NCBI RefSeq assembly: GCF_019967995.1
Contig: NZ_CP065377.1
Span: 1,984,001 to 2,048,000, forward strand
DNA: 64,000 nucleotides
Source: Faecalibacterium prausnitzii
Lineage (GTDB): Bacteria; Bacillota; Clostridia; Oscillospirales; Ruminococcaceae
Reading direction: 5' to 3'
Position 1 is the first letter of the stretch, and the number at the start of each line of letters is the position of its first letter. Below are positions 31,797 through 40,627 of this stretch, one piece after another. The notes beneath the pieces are model-generated. The model searched no databases, was not told where the DNA came from, and saw only the letters and a list, made by a program, of their open reading frames with translations. Both the position numbers and the translations under genes were made by a program.

Positions 31797-32687
31797 TCAG
31801 CGGCCGTTCTCGGCAAACAGGGTGCCGAGGGCCGCAAAGAGGTCGTGCGGGAGCATCCCGGCTTCGCCGTGCACGGCGGCGGCGCGGTCGGCAGCGGCCC
31901 CGTGGAGGTAGACCGCGCAGACGGCAGCCTCAAAGGCAGGCAGCCCGCAGGCCAGCAGAGCGCTGGTCATACCGGCCAGCACATCGCCGCTGCCCCCGCG
32001 TGACAGGCCGGGGTTGCCGGTGGGGTTCACCGCGCACCGGCCATCCGGGGCCGCGATGACCGTCTGCGCCCCCTTGAGCACGACCACGGCGTTCCACGCT
32101 CTGGCAAACCGCAGGGCGGTGCCCTCCCGGTCGGCGTGGATGGCCGCAGCGGACAGCCCGGTCAGCCGGGCCATCTCGCCGGGGTGGGGTGTTAAAATCA
32201 GTTCACCCTTCGGATGAAGCATTTTTCCAGCTTGCAACAGGTCGGCGGCGGCGTTCAGGCCGTCGGCGTCCAGCACGGCACTGCCCGCAAAGCCGGGCAG
32301 GAGCGTTTGTACCAGTGTCCGGGTCTCGGCGGCGCGGGCCATGCTCTGGGCCGTGTAGCCCAGCCCCGGCCCCAGCAGAAGGACGGTCGCCTTCTGGCGC
32401 TGGATGCAGGGGATGCTCTCCGGCGCGATGCCGCATTCGGCCCCGGCCTCGCAGGGGCAGAGGCAGCACTCCGGCAGGCGGGCAGACACCGCCGCCAGCA
32501 CCGGTTCCACGCTGGCCAGCGTGACGATGCCCGCACCGGTGCGCAGAGCGCCTTCCACCGCCAGCGCTGCCGCACCCCGGTAGCTGGCGCTGCCTGCCAC
32601 GGCCAGCACGGCCCCGAAGGTACCTTTGTGGCTGTCCCGCGGGCGGGGGCGAAGACACGTCCAAACATACGCGGCGTCTGTTTTCAT
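31797..32687 (-). CDS. nnrD: ADP-dependent NAD(P)H-hydrate dehydratase
   Basis: A 296-residue ribokinase-like enzyme that repairs hydrated NAD(P)H. It has the glycine-rich ADP site NPGLSRGGSGDVLAGM, the LVLKGAQT-type segment (VVLKGAQTVIAAPDG), and LTPHPGEMARL. The partner epimerase domain (NnrE), often fused at the N-terminus, is absent here. The start at ATG 32687 lies 5 bp after the stop of the GTPase-NYN gene, whose last codons supply a GAGAGG ribosome binding site, so the two are cotranscribed. Confidence 0.93.
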   Translation of the reverse strand: MKTDAAYVWTCLRPRPRDSHKGTFGAVLAVAGSASYRGAAALAVEGALRTGAGIVTLASVEPVLAAVSARLPECCLCPCEAGAECGIAPESIPCIQRQKATVLLLGPGLGYTAQSMARAAETRTLVQTLLPGFAGSAVLDADGLNAAADLLQAGKMLHPKGELILTPHPGEMARLTGLSAAAIHADREGTALRFARAWNAVVVLKGAQTVIAAPDGRCAVNPTGNPGLSRGGSGDVLAGMTSALLACGLPAFEAAVCAVYLHGAAADRAAAVHGEAGMLPHDLFAALGTLFAENGR

Positions 32688-32692
32688 AAGGT

Positions 32693-35290
32693 TTACACCT
32701 CTCCCTGCAAATAGTTCCGGATCTCCTTCTCGACCTCCTGCACTTCCTGATGGAACATGCGGGCCGAGACGCGAAGGGCACCGTGGCCCAGAATGATGAT
32801 CTGTTCCATGCCGTCGGAGGTGGCCACGCGGACCCGCCGCCCCTTGCCGATCTCGTGGGTAACATGCTCGATGAACATATCCGCCGTCTCGGCCTCCTTG
32901 GTGTAGACGACGTGGATGTTGTGATATTGCTCGATGACGCCGGGGCTGCCCGGCACACGGTAGGCATCGAACACGAGGATGAGCACACACTTTTTGAACC
33001 CCTGATAGTTGCACAGGATGTCCATCAGCTTCTTGCGGGCGGCATCAAGGCTCTGTTTGGAGAGCTCGTTCAGCTCATCCCACGCAAAGATGATGTTGTA
33101 GCCATCCACCAGCAGGTATTCGGGCGCGATCTCCCACTGCTCGGCGTCAAAATCCGGGCGCTCGGTCTTCCGGGTCGGGCGGAATGCGGCCAGCGGGTCC
33201 CGCTTGATGGGGCCATAGGTCTGCTCAAAGATCTTCAGCAGCTCGGCGTCCTCTTCCAGCGTGGCGCGGTAGGCGGCCATCCGGCGGGGCCGGGTGGCCG
33301 CCTCTTCCGCCGGGCGGGCGGTCTTGCCCCAGCCGCTGTCCACGTGCATGTGGCTGCGTACCTGTTCCCAGGGCACCACGAACCCGGCCCCATGGGAGCA
33401 GAAGACCGAATCCGCCGGGTTGTCGAGGTCGTGTTCCGGCTCGTAGCCGATGGCTGCCAGCACCTCGTCGGTGTTGTGGCAGGGACGGTAGCCATCCAGC
33501 GTCAGACTCAGGTGCCCCCGGCCCCGCGTGTAGCCCACTACGTCCATCGGGTAGCTGCGCATCGTGGAGGCCGGGGCTGTGCCGGTCAGGGTGGCCGTCT
33601 GGCCATCCGGAGCCGTCTGGGGCGGGTCGAAGCTGCCGCCCATCTGCTGGATGTCGTTCATCGCACGGCCCACATTCTCGGCCGGAAGTTCCAGCCGGAA
33701 GGCGTACCACGGCTCCAGCAGCTGCGCTTTGTGGATCTGCGCGGCCATCATCAGGCCCTGCCGCACCGCGCGGTAGGTCGCCTGCCGGAAATCGCCGCCC
33801 TCGGTATGCTTCAGGTGGGCGCGGCCCGCGATGAGGGTGATCTTCACATCGGTCAGCGGGGCACCGGCCAGCACACCAAGGTGCTGTTTTTCTTCGAGAT
33901 GGGTCAGCACCAGACGCTGCCAGTTCTTATCCAGCACCTCTTCGCGGCAGTCGGCCGCAAACTGCATCCCGCTGCCGCGGGGCAGAGGTTCCAGCTTGAG
34001 GTGGACTTCGGCATAGTGGCGGAGCGGCTCATAGTGGCCCACGCCCTCGATGGCCTCGGTGATCGTCTCCTTATATAAAATGCCGCCGGGGCCGAAGCAC
34101 ACCTCCAGCCCATAGCGCTCTGCCAGCAGGCTCCGGAGCACCTCCAGCTGGATCTCGCCCATGAGCTGGACGTGGATCTCGCCCAGCGTCTCGTTCCAGA
34201 CGACGTGGAGCTGGGGTTCCTCTTCTTCCAGCCGGTGGAGCTTGCCGAGAGCTGCGTGGACGTCAGCCCCCTCCGGCAGAAGCACCTGATAGCTCAGCAC
34301 CGGCTCCAGGACCGGCAGGTCGCCGTCCCGCTCTGCGCCCAGCCCCTCGCCGGGGCGGGCTTTGGTCAGTCCGGTGACGGCGCAGACCTGCCCCGGCCCG
34401 ATGCGCTCGGCCAGCGTATACCTGGCACCGGAATAAAGGCGGAGCTGGTTGGCCTTTTCGGCCCAGGGCTCCCCGTCCACTTCGCCGGTGAGCTGGGCCT
34501 TGACCTTCAGTTCGCCGCCGGTCACGCGCAGCCAGGTCAGCCGGGCCCCCTGCTCATCCTGCGAGATCTTGAACACCCGTGCGCCGAAAGCCTCCAGCGC
34601 GGGAGCCGGGCGAGTGAAGCGGTCCAGCCCGGCCAGAAGTTCGTCCACACCCTCCAGCCTGAGCGCTGCGCCGAACCAGCACGGGAAGACATGCCGCCGG
34701 GCGATGGCCGGGAGAATGTCGGCATCGGTCAGTTCCCCTTTGTCGAGGACGGTTTCCATCAGCCGCTCGTCGCAGAGGGCCAGCGCTTCGTCGCGGGCGG
34801 ACGCATCGGCCCCGAAATCCACAAAGCCGTCCCCCAGCCGATGGTTGAGCTGTTCCAGCAGCGCCTCCCGGCCGGGGCCGGGCAGGTCCATCTTATTGAG
34901 GAAAACGAAGGTCGGGATGTGATACCGCCGCAGCAGACGCCAGAGCGTTTCGGTGTGGCTCTGGACGCCGTCGGTGCCGCTGATGACCAGCACCGCATAA
35001 TCGAGTACCTGCAGGGTGCGCTCGGTCTCGGTGGAAAAGTCCACATGGCCGGGGGTATCCAGCAGGGTGAAGTCGGTGTTTCCTGCCGTCAGCAGGGCCT
35101 GCTTGGAAAAGATGGTGATGCCGCGCGCCTTTTCCAGCGCGTCGGTGTCGAGAAAGGCGTCCTTGTGGTCCACGCGGCCCAGCTTCCGGATGGCACCGGC
35201 GCGGTAGAGCATGGCTTCGGAAAGGGTGGTCTTGCCGGAGTCCACATGGGCGAGGATGCCCACCACCAGCTGCTTGTGCGGGTTTTCCAT
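32693..35290 (-). CDS. TetM/EF-G-like ribosomal GTPase fused to a YacP/Rae1-type NYN nuclease domain
   Basis: An 865-residue fusion. Residues 1-640 form a translational GTPase of the TetM/TetO ribosome-protection type, with P-loop AHVDSGKTT, GITIF, DTPGHVDF and NKMD, followed by the EF-G-like domains II to V. After a linker of about 70 residues, residues 722-865 match YacP/Rae1 NYN proteins, with VDGYNIIFAW, VFDAYRVPG, EAETADMFIE, VATSDGMEQ and the acidic residues of the catalytic pocket. Rae1 of Bacillus cleaves mRNA in the ribosomal A site, so the fusion may bring a nuclease to that site. The ATG at 35290 is chosen for its spacing to GGAAGG. Tetracycline resistance cannot be inferred. Confidence 0.9.
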   Translation of the reverse strand: MENPHKQLVVGILAHVDSGKTTLSEAMLYRAGAIRKLGRVDHKDAFLDTDALEKARGITIFSKQALLTAGNTDFTLLDTPGHVDFSTETERTLQVLDYAVLVISGTDGVQSHTETLWRLLRRYHIPTFVFLNKMDLPGPGREALLEQLNHRLGDGFVDFGADASARDEALALCDERLMETVLDKGELTDADILPAIARRHVFPCWFGAALRLEGVDELLAGLDRFTRPAPALEAFGARVFKISQDEQGARLTWLRVTGGELKVKAQLTGEVDGEPWAEKANQLRLYSGARYTLAERIGPGQVCAVTGLTKARPGEGLGAERDGDLPVLEPVLSYQVLLPEGADVHAALGKLHRLEEEEPQLHVVWNETLGEIHVQLMGEIQLEVLRSLLAERYGLEVCFGPGGILYKETITEAIEGVGHYEPLRHYAEVHLKLEPLPRGSGMQFAADCREEVLDKNWQRLVLTHLEEKQHLGVLAGAPLTDVKITLIAGRAHLKHTEGGDFRQATYRAVRQGLMMAAQIHKAQLLEPWYAFRLELPAENVGRAMNDIQQMGGSFDPPQTAPDGQTATLTGTAPASTMRSYPMDVVGYTRGRGHLSLTLDGYRPCHNTDEVLAAIGYEPEHDLDNPADSVFCSHGAGFVVPWEQVRSHMHVDSGWGKTARPAEEAATRPRRMAAYRATLEEDAELLKIFEQTYGPIKRDPLAAFRPTRKTERPDFDAEQWEIAPEYLLVDGYNIIFAWDELNELSKQSLDAARKKLMDILCNYQGFKKCVLILVFDAYRVPGSPGVIEQYHNIHVVYTKEAETADMFIEHVTHEIGKGRRVRVATSDGMEQIIILGHGALRVSARMFHQEVQEVEKEIRNYLQGEV

Positions 35291-35305
35291 GGTCTGCACC
35301 CTTCC

Positions 35306-35725
35306 TTATAAAAAGCTGATGCAGAGTGCCACCACCACCAGCGGCACCCCCAGCACCAGATTGGAGAGCATACTGCAATAGGTACGCTCCTCCGGCTCCA
35401 GCTCCTCAAAGGAGACGATCTTCTCGTCGGCATAGTCCATGATGGAGCGGGTGGCGTGGAACTTTTTCTGCGGCTTGATCCCCTTGAACTCTTCGAGCAG
35501 ATGGTGGATGGTCAGGCCGTCCAGCCGCATATAGTCCACCCACGCCCAGATGAGCAGCACCACGCCGCACAGAAAACCCGGTGCCTCCCACATGGAGAAG
35601 GTTCCATCGCTGACATACCGCTCCCACAGCAGCATCAGCACAGCCACGATGGAAGTGCGGGTCACAGTTTTATATAAGATGGGATGAAGCATATAGCCTT
35701 TGTACATCGCGCGTAGTTTTTTCAT
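35306..35725 (-). CDS. Hypothetical membrane protein
   Basis: A 139-residue protein I do not recognise. It has a basic N-terminus (MKKLRAMYKGYM), two adjacent membrane segments (about residues 20-34 and 48-66), a central charged cytoplasmic or external stretch with DEKIVSFEELEPEE, and a last hydrophobic segment ending ISFL (about 118-139). AAGGAG precedes ATG 35725, and a -10 TACAAT lies about 35 nt upstream. It ends 15 bp before the GTPase-NYN gene and is probably cotranscribed with it, which could make it a membrane partner; this is only context. Confidence 0.75.
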   Translation of the reverse strand: MKKLRAMYKGYMLHPILYKTVTRTSIVAVLMLLWERYVSDGTFSMWEAPGFLCGVVLLIWAWVDYMRLDGLTIHHLLEEFKGIKPQKKFHATRSIMDYADEKIVSFEELEPEERTYCSMLSNLVLGVPLVVVALCISFL

Positions 35726-36103
35726 GGTTTGCTCCTTATTCCGATACAGATACATTTTATTGTAGCATGTTTTTATGAAAAAAGATAGCAGAATCGTCCG
35801 TGGTGAAAAAACAGTCCACCTTTTTTTCTTTTGAAGCCTGCCGCTTTCCGCGGCCACCCGGCGCTTTGGATTCTTTTGCATTTTTCCGCTGCTGCTTTTC
35901 ATGCAAAAGCGGCTGTCACCCTTTTGTTTCCAATTTATTGCTTTAATCCGTTGACTTCTTTTCAATACAGTGCTAAAATATCTGGAGTGCGACTTTTGCC
36001 CTTCCTGTGCATTTTTTCGTGGAGGACAGGCCACACTCGTTCAGGAATAGGAAAAAACGGCGCAGGCAGACCGCCAGTGCCAGAGATCTGGGAGGATCCA
36101 TCC
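35726..36103. promoter_or_regulatory. Divergent intergenic region before the peptide importer
   Basis: A gene-free stretch of 378 bp, visibly A+T-richer than its neighbours. The promoter of the first binding-protein gene (TTGACT, 17 nt, TAAAAT) lies at 35951-35979, giving a leader of about 118 nt. On the other strand a -10 TACAAT serves the 139-residue membrane protein. I saw no further gene or structured RNA. Confidence 0.6.
35951..35979 (+). promoter_or_regulatory. Promoter for the first oligopeptide-binding protein
   Basis: -35 TTGACT (35951-35956), 17-nt spacer, -10 TAAAAT (35974-35979). Confidence 0.8.
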
Positions 36104-38134
36104 ATGAGTATCAATTTTGAGTCTCACAAGCTCGACCGCCGCAGCTTCCTCAAGGGCGCAGGCATGGTCGGCGCAGCTGGGCTGCTGGCCGCCTGCGGCG
36201 GCAAGTCCGACAACGGCAGCAGCGCTACTTCCACCAGCGGTGCCGCAGCCCCCAACACCACCGGCGCCACCCCGCTGAAGGAGTTCATCTCCTTTGAGAG
36301 CGGCAACCGGGAGCTGGAAAGCTGGAATATACTGTACACCCAGAGGGCTGAGGACGCCAACGTCATCACCAACCTGTGGGACGGCCTGCTGAGCTTCGAC
36401 TGCTACGGCAAGGTCGTGCCCGCCATCGCTTCCAGCTGGGAGCACAACGACGATTCCACCGTCTGGACCTTCCACCTGCGCGATGACGTCGATTGGGTCG
36501 ATGCCAACGGCGAGGTGAAGGATCACCTGACCAGCAAGGATTTCCTGGTCGGCTTCGAGTGGGTCATGAACGCCTACAAGAATGAGGCCAACAACACCTC
36601 CATGCCCAACGATACCGTCGTGGGCGCTGCCGATTACTACGAGCAGACCAAGGCAGCCGGCGACGCTGCTGCCGACATGACCTATGAGGACATGCTGGCT
36701 GCCGGTGTCGGCATCGAGGCTCCCGATGACTACACGCTGGTCTTCACCTGCAAGGACCCCTGCCCGTACTTCGACACCGTGGCGGCTTACAACAGCTTCT
36801 ACCCCGTCGCTCCCGCCCTGCTCGACGAGCTGGGCATCGAGGGCTTCCGCGGCTGCGACAACACTACCATGTGGTACAATGGCCCGTACGTCGTCGAGGA
36901 GTATATCCAGGGCAACACCAAGAGCTATATCCCCAACCCCAGCTACTACGATGCAGCCAACGTCAGCCGCTTTGAGCGCCTGACCATCACCATGATCTCC
37001 GATGGCTCCATCAGCCTGCAGCTGTACGAGAACCGTGAGCTGGACGAGGTCGATCTGGGCGAGAGCAGCATCGCCACCATCCAGGCCGATCCTTCCAACG
37101 TGTTCAACCAGCAGCTGTGCGAGAAGCGCCCCAAGAAGTTCAGCTACTGCTTCATCTTCAACTACGACAAGCGCAAGGCCGACGGCACCGCCGATGAGAA
37201 CTGGAACAAGGCCATCGCCAACAAGGCATTCCGCCAGTGCTTCTCCAAGGGTCTGGAGCTGTCCAAGTTCTACGCTCGCTACAACCCCATCAACCCGCTG
37301 AAGTGCGAGAACGACTTCTTTACCATGAGCGGCCTGTGCTACACCACCGACGGCACCGATTACACCAGCCTGGTCGCTAAGGAGCTGGGTCTGGATGGCG
37401 AGAAGTATGATGGCAAGACCATGAAGCGTCTGCGCGCCAACAACGGCGACATCACCGACCTGAAAAAGCAGGCCATGGACGAGCTGAGTGCCATCGGCGT
37501 CACCTTCCCGGTGCACTGCTCTTACTATATCCTGGCCGGTTCCACCACCGCTCTGGACAGCGCGACCGTCCTGAAGCAGTGCTTCACCGACAGCTTCGGC
37601 GATGACTTCATCGTGCTGGACATCGAGACCTTCGTCTCCTCCACCATGAAGGAGGTCGTGGCACCCAAGCTGCAGAGCTTCGTCCACATGGGCTGGGGCG
37701 CTGACTTCGGCGATCCCATCAACTTCCTGGCCCAGATCATCGTCCACGACGACAACGCTTACTACAGCTGCAACATGACCAACATCGAGGGCATCGCCGA
37801 GAACGGTGCCGCCGATTACCAGAAGGATCTGGTGGCTGCCTACGAGCAGTTCACCGACCTGGTCAACGAGGGCCGCGTCATCGTCAACGACACCGATGCA
37901 CGCTACGCTGCCTTCGCAAAGGCTGAGGCCTACTTCCTGGAGGAGAATCTGATCTTCCCCACCGTCTACGATGTGACCTGGTGCCTGACCCACGCCAACG
38001 AGTACAGCAAGATCAACGCCATGTACGGCCCCTGCAACTACAAGGCGGTCAACTGGGAGACCAGCGAAGAGGCTTACACCACCGAGCAGTACGAGGAGTT
38101 CGCCGCTGCTTTCGATGCAGCCACCCAGGCCTGA
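36104..38134 (+). CDS. oppA: Oligopeptide ABC transporter substrate-binding lipoprotein, copy 1
   Basis: A 676-residue SBP family 5 (OppA/DppA-like) protein. The N-terminus has a twin-arginine motif (DRRSFLKGAGM) and a lipobox (LLAAC, cysteine near residue 26), then a Ser/Thr/Ala-rich linker, as in Tat-exported lipoproteins. The mature domain shows TNLWDGLLSFD, WTFHLRDDVDW and repeated peptide-binding-fold segments. It binds extracellular peptides and delivers them to the permease encoded from 40671. GGGAGG precedes ATG 36104. Codon bias suggests high expression. Ligand preference is unknown. The neighbouring paralogue is close in sequence, most strongly over the last 45 residues. Confidence 0.94.
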   Translation: MSINFESHKLDRRSFLKGAGMVGAAGLLAACGGKSDNGSSATSTSGAAAPNTTGATPLKEFISFESGNRELESWNILYTQRAEDANVITNLWDGLLSFDCYGKVVPAIASSWEHNDDSTVWTFHLRDDVDWVDANGEVKDHLTSKDFLVGFEWVMNAYKNEANNTSMPNDTVVGAADYYEQTKAAGDAAADMTYEDMLAAGVGIEAPDDYTLVFTCKDPCPYFDTVAAYNSFYPVAPALLDELGIEGFRGCDNTTMWYNGPYVVEEYIQGNTKSYIPNPSYYDAANVSRFERLTITMISDGSISLQLYENRELDEVDLGESSIATIQADPSNVFNQQLCEKRPKKFSYCFIFNYDKRKADGTADENWNKAIANKAFRQCFSKGLELSKFYARYNPINPLKCENDFFTMSGLCYTTDGTDYTSLVAKELGLDGEKYDGKTMKRLRANNGDITDLKKQAMDELSAIGVTFPVHCSYYILAGSTTALDSATVLKQCFTDSFGDDFIVLDIETFVSSTMKEVVAPKLQSFVHMGWGADFGDPINFLAQIIVHDDNAYYSCNMTNIEGIAENGAADYQKDLVAAYEQFTDLVNEGRVIVNDTDARYAAFAKAEAYFLEENLIFPTVYDVTWCLTHANEYSKINAMYGPCNYKAVNWETSEEAYTTEQYEEFAAAFDAATQA

Positions 38135-38413: not shown

Positions 38414-38599
38414 AATCAGCGTGTTAAGGTTTTGCGGGAGGAGCACAGGCACAGACAGAGGGGTCTGTATCTGCGCTCTTTTGTATTCCTCAGCAGTACA
38501 GGAGATGCGAAGCTCCCGCAAAGGAGTGGGAAACAAGCAGGACAACGCGCCCTGCACCATGCACCGAAGCACGGAAAAAATTTTAGGGAGGATAACACA

Positions 38600-40627
38600 A
38601 TGAACATCAATCACGAGTCTCATGCAATCAGCCGCCGCAGCTTTCTGAAGGCTTCCGGCGTTGTTGGTGCCGCCGGCATCCTGGCAGCCTGTGGCGGCAG
38701 CTCCAGCAGCTCCACCGCTGCTTCTTCCGGCGCAACCAGCGCCCCCAACACCACCGGCGCTACTCCGCTGAAGGAGTTCATCTCCTGGGAGGGCACCAAC
38801 CGTGAGCTGGAGAGCTGGAACATGCTGTACAGCCAGATGGCTTCCGACATGAATGTCACCACCAACCTGTGGGAGGGCCTGCTGAGCTTTGACTGCTACG
38901 GCAAGGCCGTGCCTTCCGTGGCCAAGGAGTGGAGCCACAACGAGGACTCCTCCGTCTGGACCTTCAACCTGCGCGACGATGTCGACTGGGTGGACGTCAA
39001 CGGCGAGGTCAAGGCTCACCTGACCAGCAAGGACTTCCTCGTGGGTCTGGAGTGGGTGCTGAACGCAGCCAAGAACCAGGCCAACAACACCTCCATGCCC
39101 AACGAGACTCTGGTGGGCGCTGCGGACTACTACCAGAAGACCAGCGACATGGGCGACGCCGCTGCCGACCTGACCTACGAAGATATGCTGGCCGCCGGTG
39201 TGGGCATTGAGGCTACCGATGATTACACTCTGGTCTTCACCTGCAAGAATCCCTGCCCGTACTTCGATACCGTGGCTGCTTACACCAGCTTCTACCCCGT
39301 CTCTGAGGACCTGATCACCGAGCTGGGCATCGAGGGCTTCCGTGCCTGCGACTACACCAACATGTGGTACAACGGCCCGTATGTGGTGGAGGAGTTCATC
39401 AGCCAGAACACTAAGAGCTACATCCCCAACCCCAACTACTATGGTGCAGACGATGTGTCCCGCTTCGACCGCTTCACCGTTACCATGATCAGCGACGGCA
39501 CCGTCACCTTCCAGCTGTATCAGAACCGTGAGCTGGACGAGATGGATGTCGGCGAGAGCACCCTGACCACCATCCAGGCCGATCCCAACAGCGAGTACAA
39601 TGCTCAGCTGTGCGAGAAGCGCCCCAAGAAGTTCAGCTACCAGATGCACTTCAACTATCAGAAGAACAATGAGGACGGCACCCCCGACGACAACTGGAAC
39701 AAGGCCATCGCCAACACCGCCTTCCGTCAGTGCTTCTACAAGGGCCTGGAGCTGACCAACTGGTATGCACGTACCAACAAGATCAACCCCCTGAAGTGCG
39801 AGAACGACTACTACACCATGCCGGGCGTCTGCTACAACACCAAGGGCGAGGAGTACTCCACCCTGGTCGCCAAGGAGATGGGCTTCGACAAGGAGTCTTA
39901 TGACGGCAAGACCATGATCCGCCTGCGCGCCAACAATGGCGACATCGCGGACCTGAAGAAGCAGGCTATGGACGAGCTGAGCGCCATCGGCGTCACCTTC
40001 CCCGTCCACGCTGCTTACTACATCATCGCCAGCAACTCCACCGCTCTGGACAGCGCAACCGTCCTGAAGCAGTGCTTCACCGACAGCTTCGGCGATGACT
40101 TCATCGTGCTGGACATCAAGACCTTCGTTTCCTCCATCACCCAGGAAGTCCGTAACCCGCAGCTGCAGAGCTTCGTCATCAACGGCTGGGGCGCTGACTT
40201 CGGTGACCCCGTCAACTTCGTTGGTCAGGAGATCCTGCACGACGACAACGCCTACTACAGCTGGTACTACTCCAACATCGCTAAGATCGTCGAGGCCGGC
40301 CCCGCTGACTGGCAGAAGGATCTGGTGGCCTGCTACGAGGAGTTCACCGATCTGGTCAACACCGCAAAGGCCATCGTCGATGATACCGATGCCCGCTATG
40401 CTGCCTTCGCAAAGGCTGAGGCCAGCATGCTGAACAACGTTCTGGCCTGCCCCTGCTACTTCGAGGTGGCCTGGACTCTGACCCACGCCAACGAGTACAG
40501 CAAGATCAACGCCATGTACGGCCCCTGCAACTACAAGGCTGTCAACTGGGAGACCAGCGAAGAGGCTTACACCACCGAGCAGTACGAGGAGTTCGCTGCT
40601 GCATTCGATGCTGCCACCAAGGCCTGA
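38600..40627 (+). CDS. oppA: Oligopeptide ABC transporter substrate-binding lipoprotein, copy 2
   Basis: A 675-residue paralogue of the preceding binding protein, with the same twin-arginine motif (SRRSFLKASG) and lipobox (ILAAC). The linker is Ser-rich. Most blocks of the mature protein are shared with copy 1, including the last 45 residues almost unchanged, while scattered differences (YQMHFNYQKNN versus YCFIFNYDKRK, for example) could alter peptide choice. AGGGAGG precedes ATG 38600. It leads the permease and ATPase genes and is probably the main partner of the importer. Gene duplication, not a sequencing artefact, is supported by the different flanks. Confidence 0.94.
   Translation: MNINHESHAISRRSFLKASGVVGAAGILAACGGSSSSSTAASSGATSAPNTTGATPLKEFISWEGTNRELESWNMLYSQMASDMNVTTNLWEGLLSFDCYGKAVPSVAKEWSHNEDSSVWTFNLRDDVDWVDVNGEVKAHLTSKDFLVGLEWVLNAAKNQANNTSMPNETLVGAADYYQKTSDMGDAAADLTYEDMLAAGVGIEATDDYTLVFTCKNPCPYFDTVAAYTSFYPVSEDLITELGIEGFRACDYTNMWYNGPYVVEEFISQNTKSYIPNPNYYGADDVSRFDRFTVTMISDGTVTFQLYQNRELDEMDVGESTLTTIQADPNSEYNAQLCEKRPKKFSYQMHFNYQKNNEDGTPDDNWNKAIANTAFRQCFYKGLELTNWYARTNKINPLKCENDYYTMPGVCYNTKGEEYSTLVAKEMGFDKESYDGKTMIRLRANNGDIADLKKQAMDELSAIGVTFPVHAAYYIIASNSTALDSATVLKQCFTDSFGDDFIVLDIKTFVSSITQEVRNPQLQSFVINGWGADFGDPVNFVGQEILHDDNAYYSWYYSNIAKIVEAGPADWQKDLVACYEEFTDLVNTAKAIVDDTDARYAAFAKAEASMLNNVLACPCYFEVAWTLTHANEYSKINAMYGPCNYKAVNWETSEEAYTTEQYEEFAAAFDAATKA

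Follow-up and report, generated by a model that had tools for sequence, protein, structure and literature searches.

Gene and Domain Organization

The window, i.e., the whole stretch of 64,000 nucleotides that was analysed, carries a gene in which an EF-G/Tet-type GTPase and a YacP/Rae1-type NYN nuclease are joined in one open reading frame, with nnrD downstream and a small open reading frame upstream (Table 1). The fusion had been proposed in the original prediction and was confirmed by Pfam, by matches to PDB sequences and by an AlphaFold2 model. The gene most likely starts at ATG 35290, because AAGGAAGGG, a probable ribosome-binding site that overlaps the stop codon of the small upstream frame, lies 8 nt before that ATG; the alternative upstream start, GTG 35299, would give 868 aa, and residues and domains are numbered from it throughout.

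Table 1. Features of the fused gene and its neighbors (window coordinates; residues counted from GTG 35299).
Feature	Position	Strand	Residues	Basis or remark
nnrD, NAD(P)H-hydrate dehydratase	31797..32687	(-)		5 nt downstream of fused gene
Fused gene, EF-G/Tet-type GTPase + YacP/Rae1 NYN nuclease	32693..35290	(-)		865 aa from ATG 35290
YacP/Rae1-type NYN nuclease domain (NYN_YacP)	32711..33115	(-)	729-863	Pfam
Linker	33125..33334	(-)	656-725	poorly conserved, low model confidence
C-terminal mini-domain	33335..33484	(-)	606-655	alignment; well modelled (AlphaFold2)
EF-G domain V (EFG_C)	33473..33724	(-)	526-609	Pfam
EF-G domain IV (EFG_IV)	33743..34081	(-)	407-519	Pfam
Domain IV tip loop GRAHLKHTEGGDF	33788..33826	(-)	492-504	alignment
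EF-G domain III	34091..34306	(-)	332-403	Pfam
EF-G domain II	34361..34585	(-)	239-313	under Pfam cut-off (21.5 v 27 bits)
GTPase domain GTP_EFTU	34616..35269	(-)	11-228	Pfam, E 7e-47
Probable ribosome-binding site AAGGAAGGG	35299..35307	(-)		8 nt before ATG 35290
Small ORF, 139 aa	35306..35725	(-)		membrane-protein-like by eye; 15 nt upstream of ATG 35290

The domain search that the original prediction had called for recovered the EF-G domains, with domain II below the cut-off, as well as NYN_YacP (PF05991), which was matched with an E value of 9.8e-49 and 166 bits against a cut-off of 24.6, placing the C-terminal domain within this family. When PDB sequences were searched, the fused protein matched EF-G, TetM (3j9y) and TetO, and its C-terminal 149 residues matched B. 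subtilis YacP/Rae1 (5mq8/5mq9) with an E value of about 2e-24; a separate list of PDB matches covers residues 6-642. The AlphaFold2 model, built with 59 sequences, had a mean pLDDT of 85 and a pTM of 0.66; the NYN part (728-866) was folded, with ten-residue blocks mostly at 83-93 and the lowest at 69, and pLDDT fell under 50 at residues 660-670 and 708-724 of the linker, which also holds a partly conserved ELxxIFExTYG stretch. The best named protein matches were from Faecalibacterium (94% to F. hattorii). The gene is located on the 2.94-Mb main contig of a genome whose one NYN_YacP protein is the fused protein, and EF-G domain IV was found there in three proteins, the fused one and two others that are EF-G-like and 712 and 713 aa long. 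The fusion is not an assembly artefact, since 136 of 393 genomes of the class were classed as carriers.

Conservation of the Active Sites and the C-Terminal Tail

Conservation was evaluated in an alignment of 65 fused rows (64 plus the window), 18 NYN-less relatives and 26 stand-alone NYN proteins, from which fourteen duplicate loci and the interrupted locus L084 were left out; near-copies among the kept fused rows are L033/L046 and L061/L062/L092. The P-loop (D20, G22, K23, T24), the G3 motif (D81, G84, H85) and the G4 motif NKxD (N135, K136, D138) were invariant in 65/65 fused rows, as were D732, N735, D778, D807 and D829 of the NYN part, four of which (D732, D778, D807, D829) are the acidic residues of NYN_YacP. 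The intact GTPase and the complete nuclease domain with its acidic residues, both claimed originally, were thereby borne out, and both enzyme active sites seem to be preserved within a single chain.

B. subtilis Rae1/YacP was found to align over 135 NYN residues, and the fusion retains the VDGYN, FDA, TKExETAD and ATSD motifs. Free-standing Rae1 orthologues are separate proteins of about 170-190 aa, whereas the window protein is 865 aa long with NYN as its C-terminal domain. The C-terminal tail is shorter in the window's fused protein than in B. subtilis Rae1: after a conserved EQ motif, 61-63 residues were counted in 24/24 measured stand-alone rows, against 32 to 72 in the 63 fused rows measured and 35 in the window, four rows lacking the search motif. 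Similarly, a C-terminal LExxR motif was present in 22/26 stand-alone rows versus 2/65 fused rows, the window not being among those 2; the four stand-alone rows without it read LDKIR, LQKIR, LDRMR and LDKIR. Rae1 is about 170 aa long, and from this length, not from the alignment, R166 would fall within the LExxR motif. The R166P substitution is one of the suppressors read as Rae1 loss of function in B. subtilis (PMC6613710). The difference could be read as a tail that is needed by free Rae1 and that would be dispensable once the GTPase tethers the nuclease to the ribosome.

Gene Neighborhoods

At stand-alone NYN loci, a SpoU methylase gene (rlmB) lies just upstream in 42 of 46 assessable loci, and a sigma-factor gene just downstream in 42 of 47. 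Neither gene, and hence not the order rlmB(yacO)-rae1-sigma factor of a free-standing Rae1, was found at any of 123 fused loci, some of which have short flanks and some of which may represent the same species from two collections. The stand-alone loci follow the yacO-rae1 order of B. subtilis, where a sigma-factor gene presumably comes next. yacO and rae1 are co-transcribed in that species (PMC6613710). No NYN gene follows the rlmB homologue in the window's genome, which, together with the absence of the stand-alone order at fused loci, points to the fusion as these genomes' substitute for rae1.

The link of stand-alone copies to an rRNA methylase gene, as well as a role in rRNA and tRNA maturation proposed for the domain (cited in PMC4342817), would suit a nuclease that cuts rRNA or tRNA, by cleavage at the decoding site or of A-site tRNA or in rRNA maturation, and not mRNA. 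This substrate is nevertheless considered rather unlikely, as Rae1 of B. subtilis, a close relative that has been characterised, is described as an endoribonuclease that acts on mRNA in the ribosomal A site and whose activity may be raised by stalling (PMC6613710). S1025 and bmrC/bmrD are among the targets known for Rae1 (PMC10632193).

The neighbors in the window were found beside the fusion in Faecalibacterium only. nnrD follows the fusion in 17/17 Faecalibacterium loci (L162-L177, L192), and the small ORF, which had no match in Pfam or NCBIfam, precedes it in 12/17, the exceptions being L177, without upstream sequence, and L164, L165, L166 and L192, without a match; neither was detected by tblastn in the other 125 loci, some with short flanks. 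Co-transcription of nnrD, fusion and small ORF, as originally proposed, is probable in the window in view of the tight spacing (5 nt and 15 nt), but the neighbors do not look like a conserved module, and because they adjoin the fusion in Faecalibacterium only, they say little on function and were dropped as a functional clue. A Monoglobus fused gene (L033:4998-7586) lies on a 518-kb record labelled plasmid, unlike the main-contig gene of the window, with spore-coat and recombinase genes downstream of it; the small ORF that directly precedes it has no detectable similarity to the Faecalibacterium one. Farther along the window, two tandem similar substrate-binding proteins, presumably of the peptide type, are encoded at 35831-38134 and 38432-40627, and the long open antisense frames on these genes (650 and 697 aa) are probably a composition effect only.

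Distribution of Fused and Stand-Alone Forms

The sample comprised 393 genomes of the window's class, at least 90% complete. NYN_YacP was found in 250 of them; the full fused protein was matched at an E value of 1e-80 or better in 171/393, and an NYN-less relative used as query gave matches at 1e-100 or better in 164/393. The fusion is present in 136/393 genomes, seven of which (G044, G156, G172, G185, G190, G235, G295) show it only as fragments, where a contig ends or the frame is interrupted. It usually occurs once per genome and spans 26 family codes, carriers including Faecalibacterium, Blautia and other Lachnospiraceae and Oscillospiraceae; similar fusions in other Clostridia, which the original prediction had expected, thus exist, and they are already in print. 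Stand-alone NYN only was found in 113/393 genomes, 91 of which have no GTPase of the fusion's family; G261, which has a 19-residue NYN fragment only, was not counted. An NYN-less GTPase of that family was found in 28/393, namely 22 among the 113 and 6 without any NYN (G146 was partly matched, G277 was short and G376 is without a listed row), and 138/393 have neither NYN nor the GTPase family, weak GTPase matches in G042, G102, G130, G203, G236, G333 and G381 being left out. A sample of the phylum (n = 149) added 8 genomes from outside the class in which the frame with NYN measures 877-909 aa; these were called fused by frame length alone, and a second NYN was found in none of them.

The two forms hardly ever occur together. 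Stand-alone NYN is present in 1/136 fused genomes (G284, 174 aa) against 113/257 others, with a Fisher value of 1.6e-24 that ignores shared descent; second NYN matches in G120, G174 and G208 fell below the cut-off, and those in G370 are short frames (81 and 49 aa). Since a stand-alone copy accompanies the fusion in just one genome, stand-alone Rae1 appears to be replaced by the NYN part, and the pattern suggests that the fusion stands in for it, although the exclusion may rest on few events. Each half also occurs alone in class genomes, so neither half needs the other. Neither the fusion nor either half was found in four members of the window's family (G126, G318, G348, G387), which indicates that the fused protein is dispensable. 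The co-occurrence of NYN-less GTPase and stand-alone NYN (22/28, odds ratio 5.6) was set aside as weak, 15 of the 28 genomes belonging to one family code.

Descent

Two quick trees, with SH-aLRT support only and with some rows of unusual composition or long branch, were built. The NYN tree held 69 rows, including at most 3 fused rows per family code (43 of the 65), and 42 of these 43 fell in one clade (support 99) together with one stand-alone row, L027; the remaining fused row, L083, sits on a very long branch outside the main fused clade. The GTPase tree held 67 rows, with at most 2 fused rows per family code (37 of the 65) and 26 NYN-less rows, the divergent L083 being excluded. All 37 fused rows fell in one clade (support 100), which also takes in L032, an NYN-less protein from a Ligilactobacillus plasmid, and the 63 family rows were split from TetM, TetO and both EF-Gs of the genome (support 99); the family thus did not group with TetM/TetO, the only two Tet proteins in the tree. 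The origin of the fusion is therefore close to single; most simply, the NYN part would have been joined once to a pre-existing NYN-less GTPase, and the two would rarely have come apart afterwards. Fused and stand-alone NYN genomes occur side by side in five family codes, so that the state has changed more than once. Some stand-alone NYN genes for which no SpoU neighbor was found belong to family codes with fused genomes as well (L007, L022, L023 and L029 in f23, L027 in f28); they are candidates for such later separations, L007 having a flank too short to judge.

Several single loci depart from the common pattern. L032 (4535-6926), whose neighbors on a plasmid of Ligilactobacillus salivarius are rpsN and a putative metal homeostasis gene, groups with the fused rows in the tree, which suggests that the gene was transferred and its NYN part lost. 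L083 (genome G198) and the copy in G336, both of family code f6, are divergent fused proteins of 841 and 851 aa, and L083 might be an independent fusion. In L084 (4266-6986, genome G190), one TAG interrupts the fused copy about 288 residues in, and the remainder stays in-frame, which may reflect decay, sequencing error or read-through.

The occurrence of each half alone, the 70-residue linker of low AlphaFold2 confidence and the five mixed family codes would also fit a fusion of convenience, in which an accessory translation-factor GTPase and an ordinary Rae1 NYN domain act separately on one chain. This account is judged unlikely, given that the fusion is retained across 26 family codes and that the C-terminal motif of stand-alone proteins is rare in fused ones.

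The GTPase Part and Ribosome Protection

The position of TetM P509, which is reported to contact C1054 of 16S rRNA (PMC8161019), lies in the domain IV tip loop. In the fused protein this loop, GRAHLKHTEGGDF, has H498, T499, D503 and F504 invariant (n = 65) and K497, at the position of P509, in 63/65 rows; in the 18 NYN-less rows the counts for H498, T499, D503, F504 and K497 were 18, 18, 18, 17 and 17. GRAHLKHTEGGDF is thus conserved in fused proteins and NYN-less relatives, and TetM and TetO read GLYYSPVSTPADF there, so that the fused protein does not have the loop of those two. Since the TetM triple mutant S508A/P509A/V510A is reported to stay active (PMC4750697), the difference is suggestive only as an argument on function. 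Against the NCBIfam model tet_protect, with a cut-off of 775 bits, the window protein reached 377.7 bits and five NYN-less relatives 375-460. Residues 606-655 form a mini-domain without counterpart in TetM/TetO in the alignment, in which C607, D624, S631, F633 and G637 are invariant in the 65 fused and 18 NYN-less rows. C634 and H652, near-invariant beside C607, are likewise common to fused and NYN-less members, and the three residues could form a possible metal site. Tet(B)P of C. perfringens (652 aa) may be a further NYN-less relative.

A fusion of a Tet protein with a YacP-like NYN domain was described by Atkinson (2015) in ten Clostridiales species, with a suggested role in resistance (PMC4342817). 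In the literature searched, neither a further report of the fusion nor an experimental study of it was found. The labels given by the sources to fused proteins are translation factor or, for P0114, tetracycline resistance protein, a name also given to NYN-less Ligilactobacillus relatives. That the protein protects against tetracycline or another A-site drug, with the nuclease as an added resistance step, is quite improbable: the TetM/TetO domain order is shared with about 29% identity over 600 residues, the role has been suggested in print, resistance labels are in use and the Monoglobus copy is plasmid-labelled, but the tet_protect scores (378 against 775 bits, and those of the NYN-less relatives) fall far short, K497 replaces the C1054-contacting proline in 63/65 rows, even if the active triple mutant means that loop letters alone do not exclude the role, and about a third of the class sample has the fusion, usually one per genome. 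The original claim that drug-bound ribosomes are sensed is not supported either, in view of the same score and the tip loop.

Proposed Function

The reading preferred here, which is given an even chance, is that the fused protein is this lineage's Rae1, mounted on a dedicated translational GTPase of the EF-G-like kind, and that it cuts mRNA in the manner of Rae1 after delivery to the ribosome. The spread and distribution of the fusion point to replacement of Rae1 rather than to a resistance gene. Ribosome binding would be expected from the GTPase's family, and mRNA would be the substrate by analogy with B. subtilis Rae1. In the order of events envisaged, the GTPase in its GTP form would enter the factor site of ribosomes whose A site is accessible and dock via domains II-V, bringing the tethered NYN domain beside the A site; upon GTP hydrolysis, domain IV would leave the decoding center or alternate with the NYN domain, which, on its 70-residue linker, would reach the A site and cut the mRNA there. 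Tet-type factors are reported to bind overlapping the A site (PMC8161019), and simultaneous binding by domain IV and a Rae1-like nuclease is doubtful; the sequential order is favored because the two cannot share the A site at once. The linker is modelled at low confidence, so that the geometry envisaged is tentative. The GTPase would, moreover, replace Rae1's own docking element.

A more tentative and less probable extension is a one-protein no-go-decay factor, in which the GTPase, driven by GTP, would clear or probe the A site and hand the ribosome to its own tethered nuclease; with the GTPase in place of the ribosome-docking tail, such a factor would have replaced Rae1 across a large part of gut Clostridia. 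If the reading of the fusion as a ribosome-delivered Rae1 holds, gut bacteria such as Faecalibacterium and Blautia would carry out ribosome-coupled mRNA decay through a GTPase-nuclease fusion, the way in which a translational GTPase is tied to mRNA cleavage could be tested directly within one polypeptide, and the resistance label on fused proteins would be corrected.

Comparison with Known Systems

B. subtilis Rae1 is a separate protein encoded after yacO, whereas here an EF-G-like GTPase carries the nuclease as its C-terminal domain. TetM and TetO resemble the fused protein in their EF-G-like domain order, intact GTPase and similar length of the GTPase part, but the fused protein differs from them in its separate clade, its domain IV tip loop and its C-terminal extension. 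Its identity to the two EF-G paralogues of its genome is 25-26%, and unlike EF-G and EF-G2, it has additional C-terminal parts. The Clostridial Tet-NYN fusions of Atkinson (2015) have the same architecture as the window gene, a GTPase with a C-terminal NYN domain in one chain, and their account in that paper consists of two sentences with the resistance suggestion (PMC4342817). The fusion itself is therefore not new, having been noticed previously in print; what the present analysis adds are its distribution, its relation to stand-alone Rae1, its origin and the difference in the tail.
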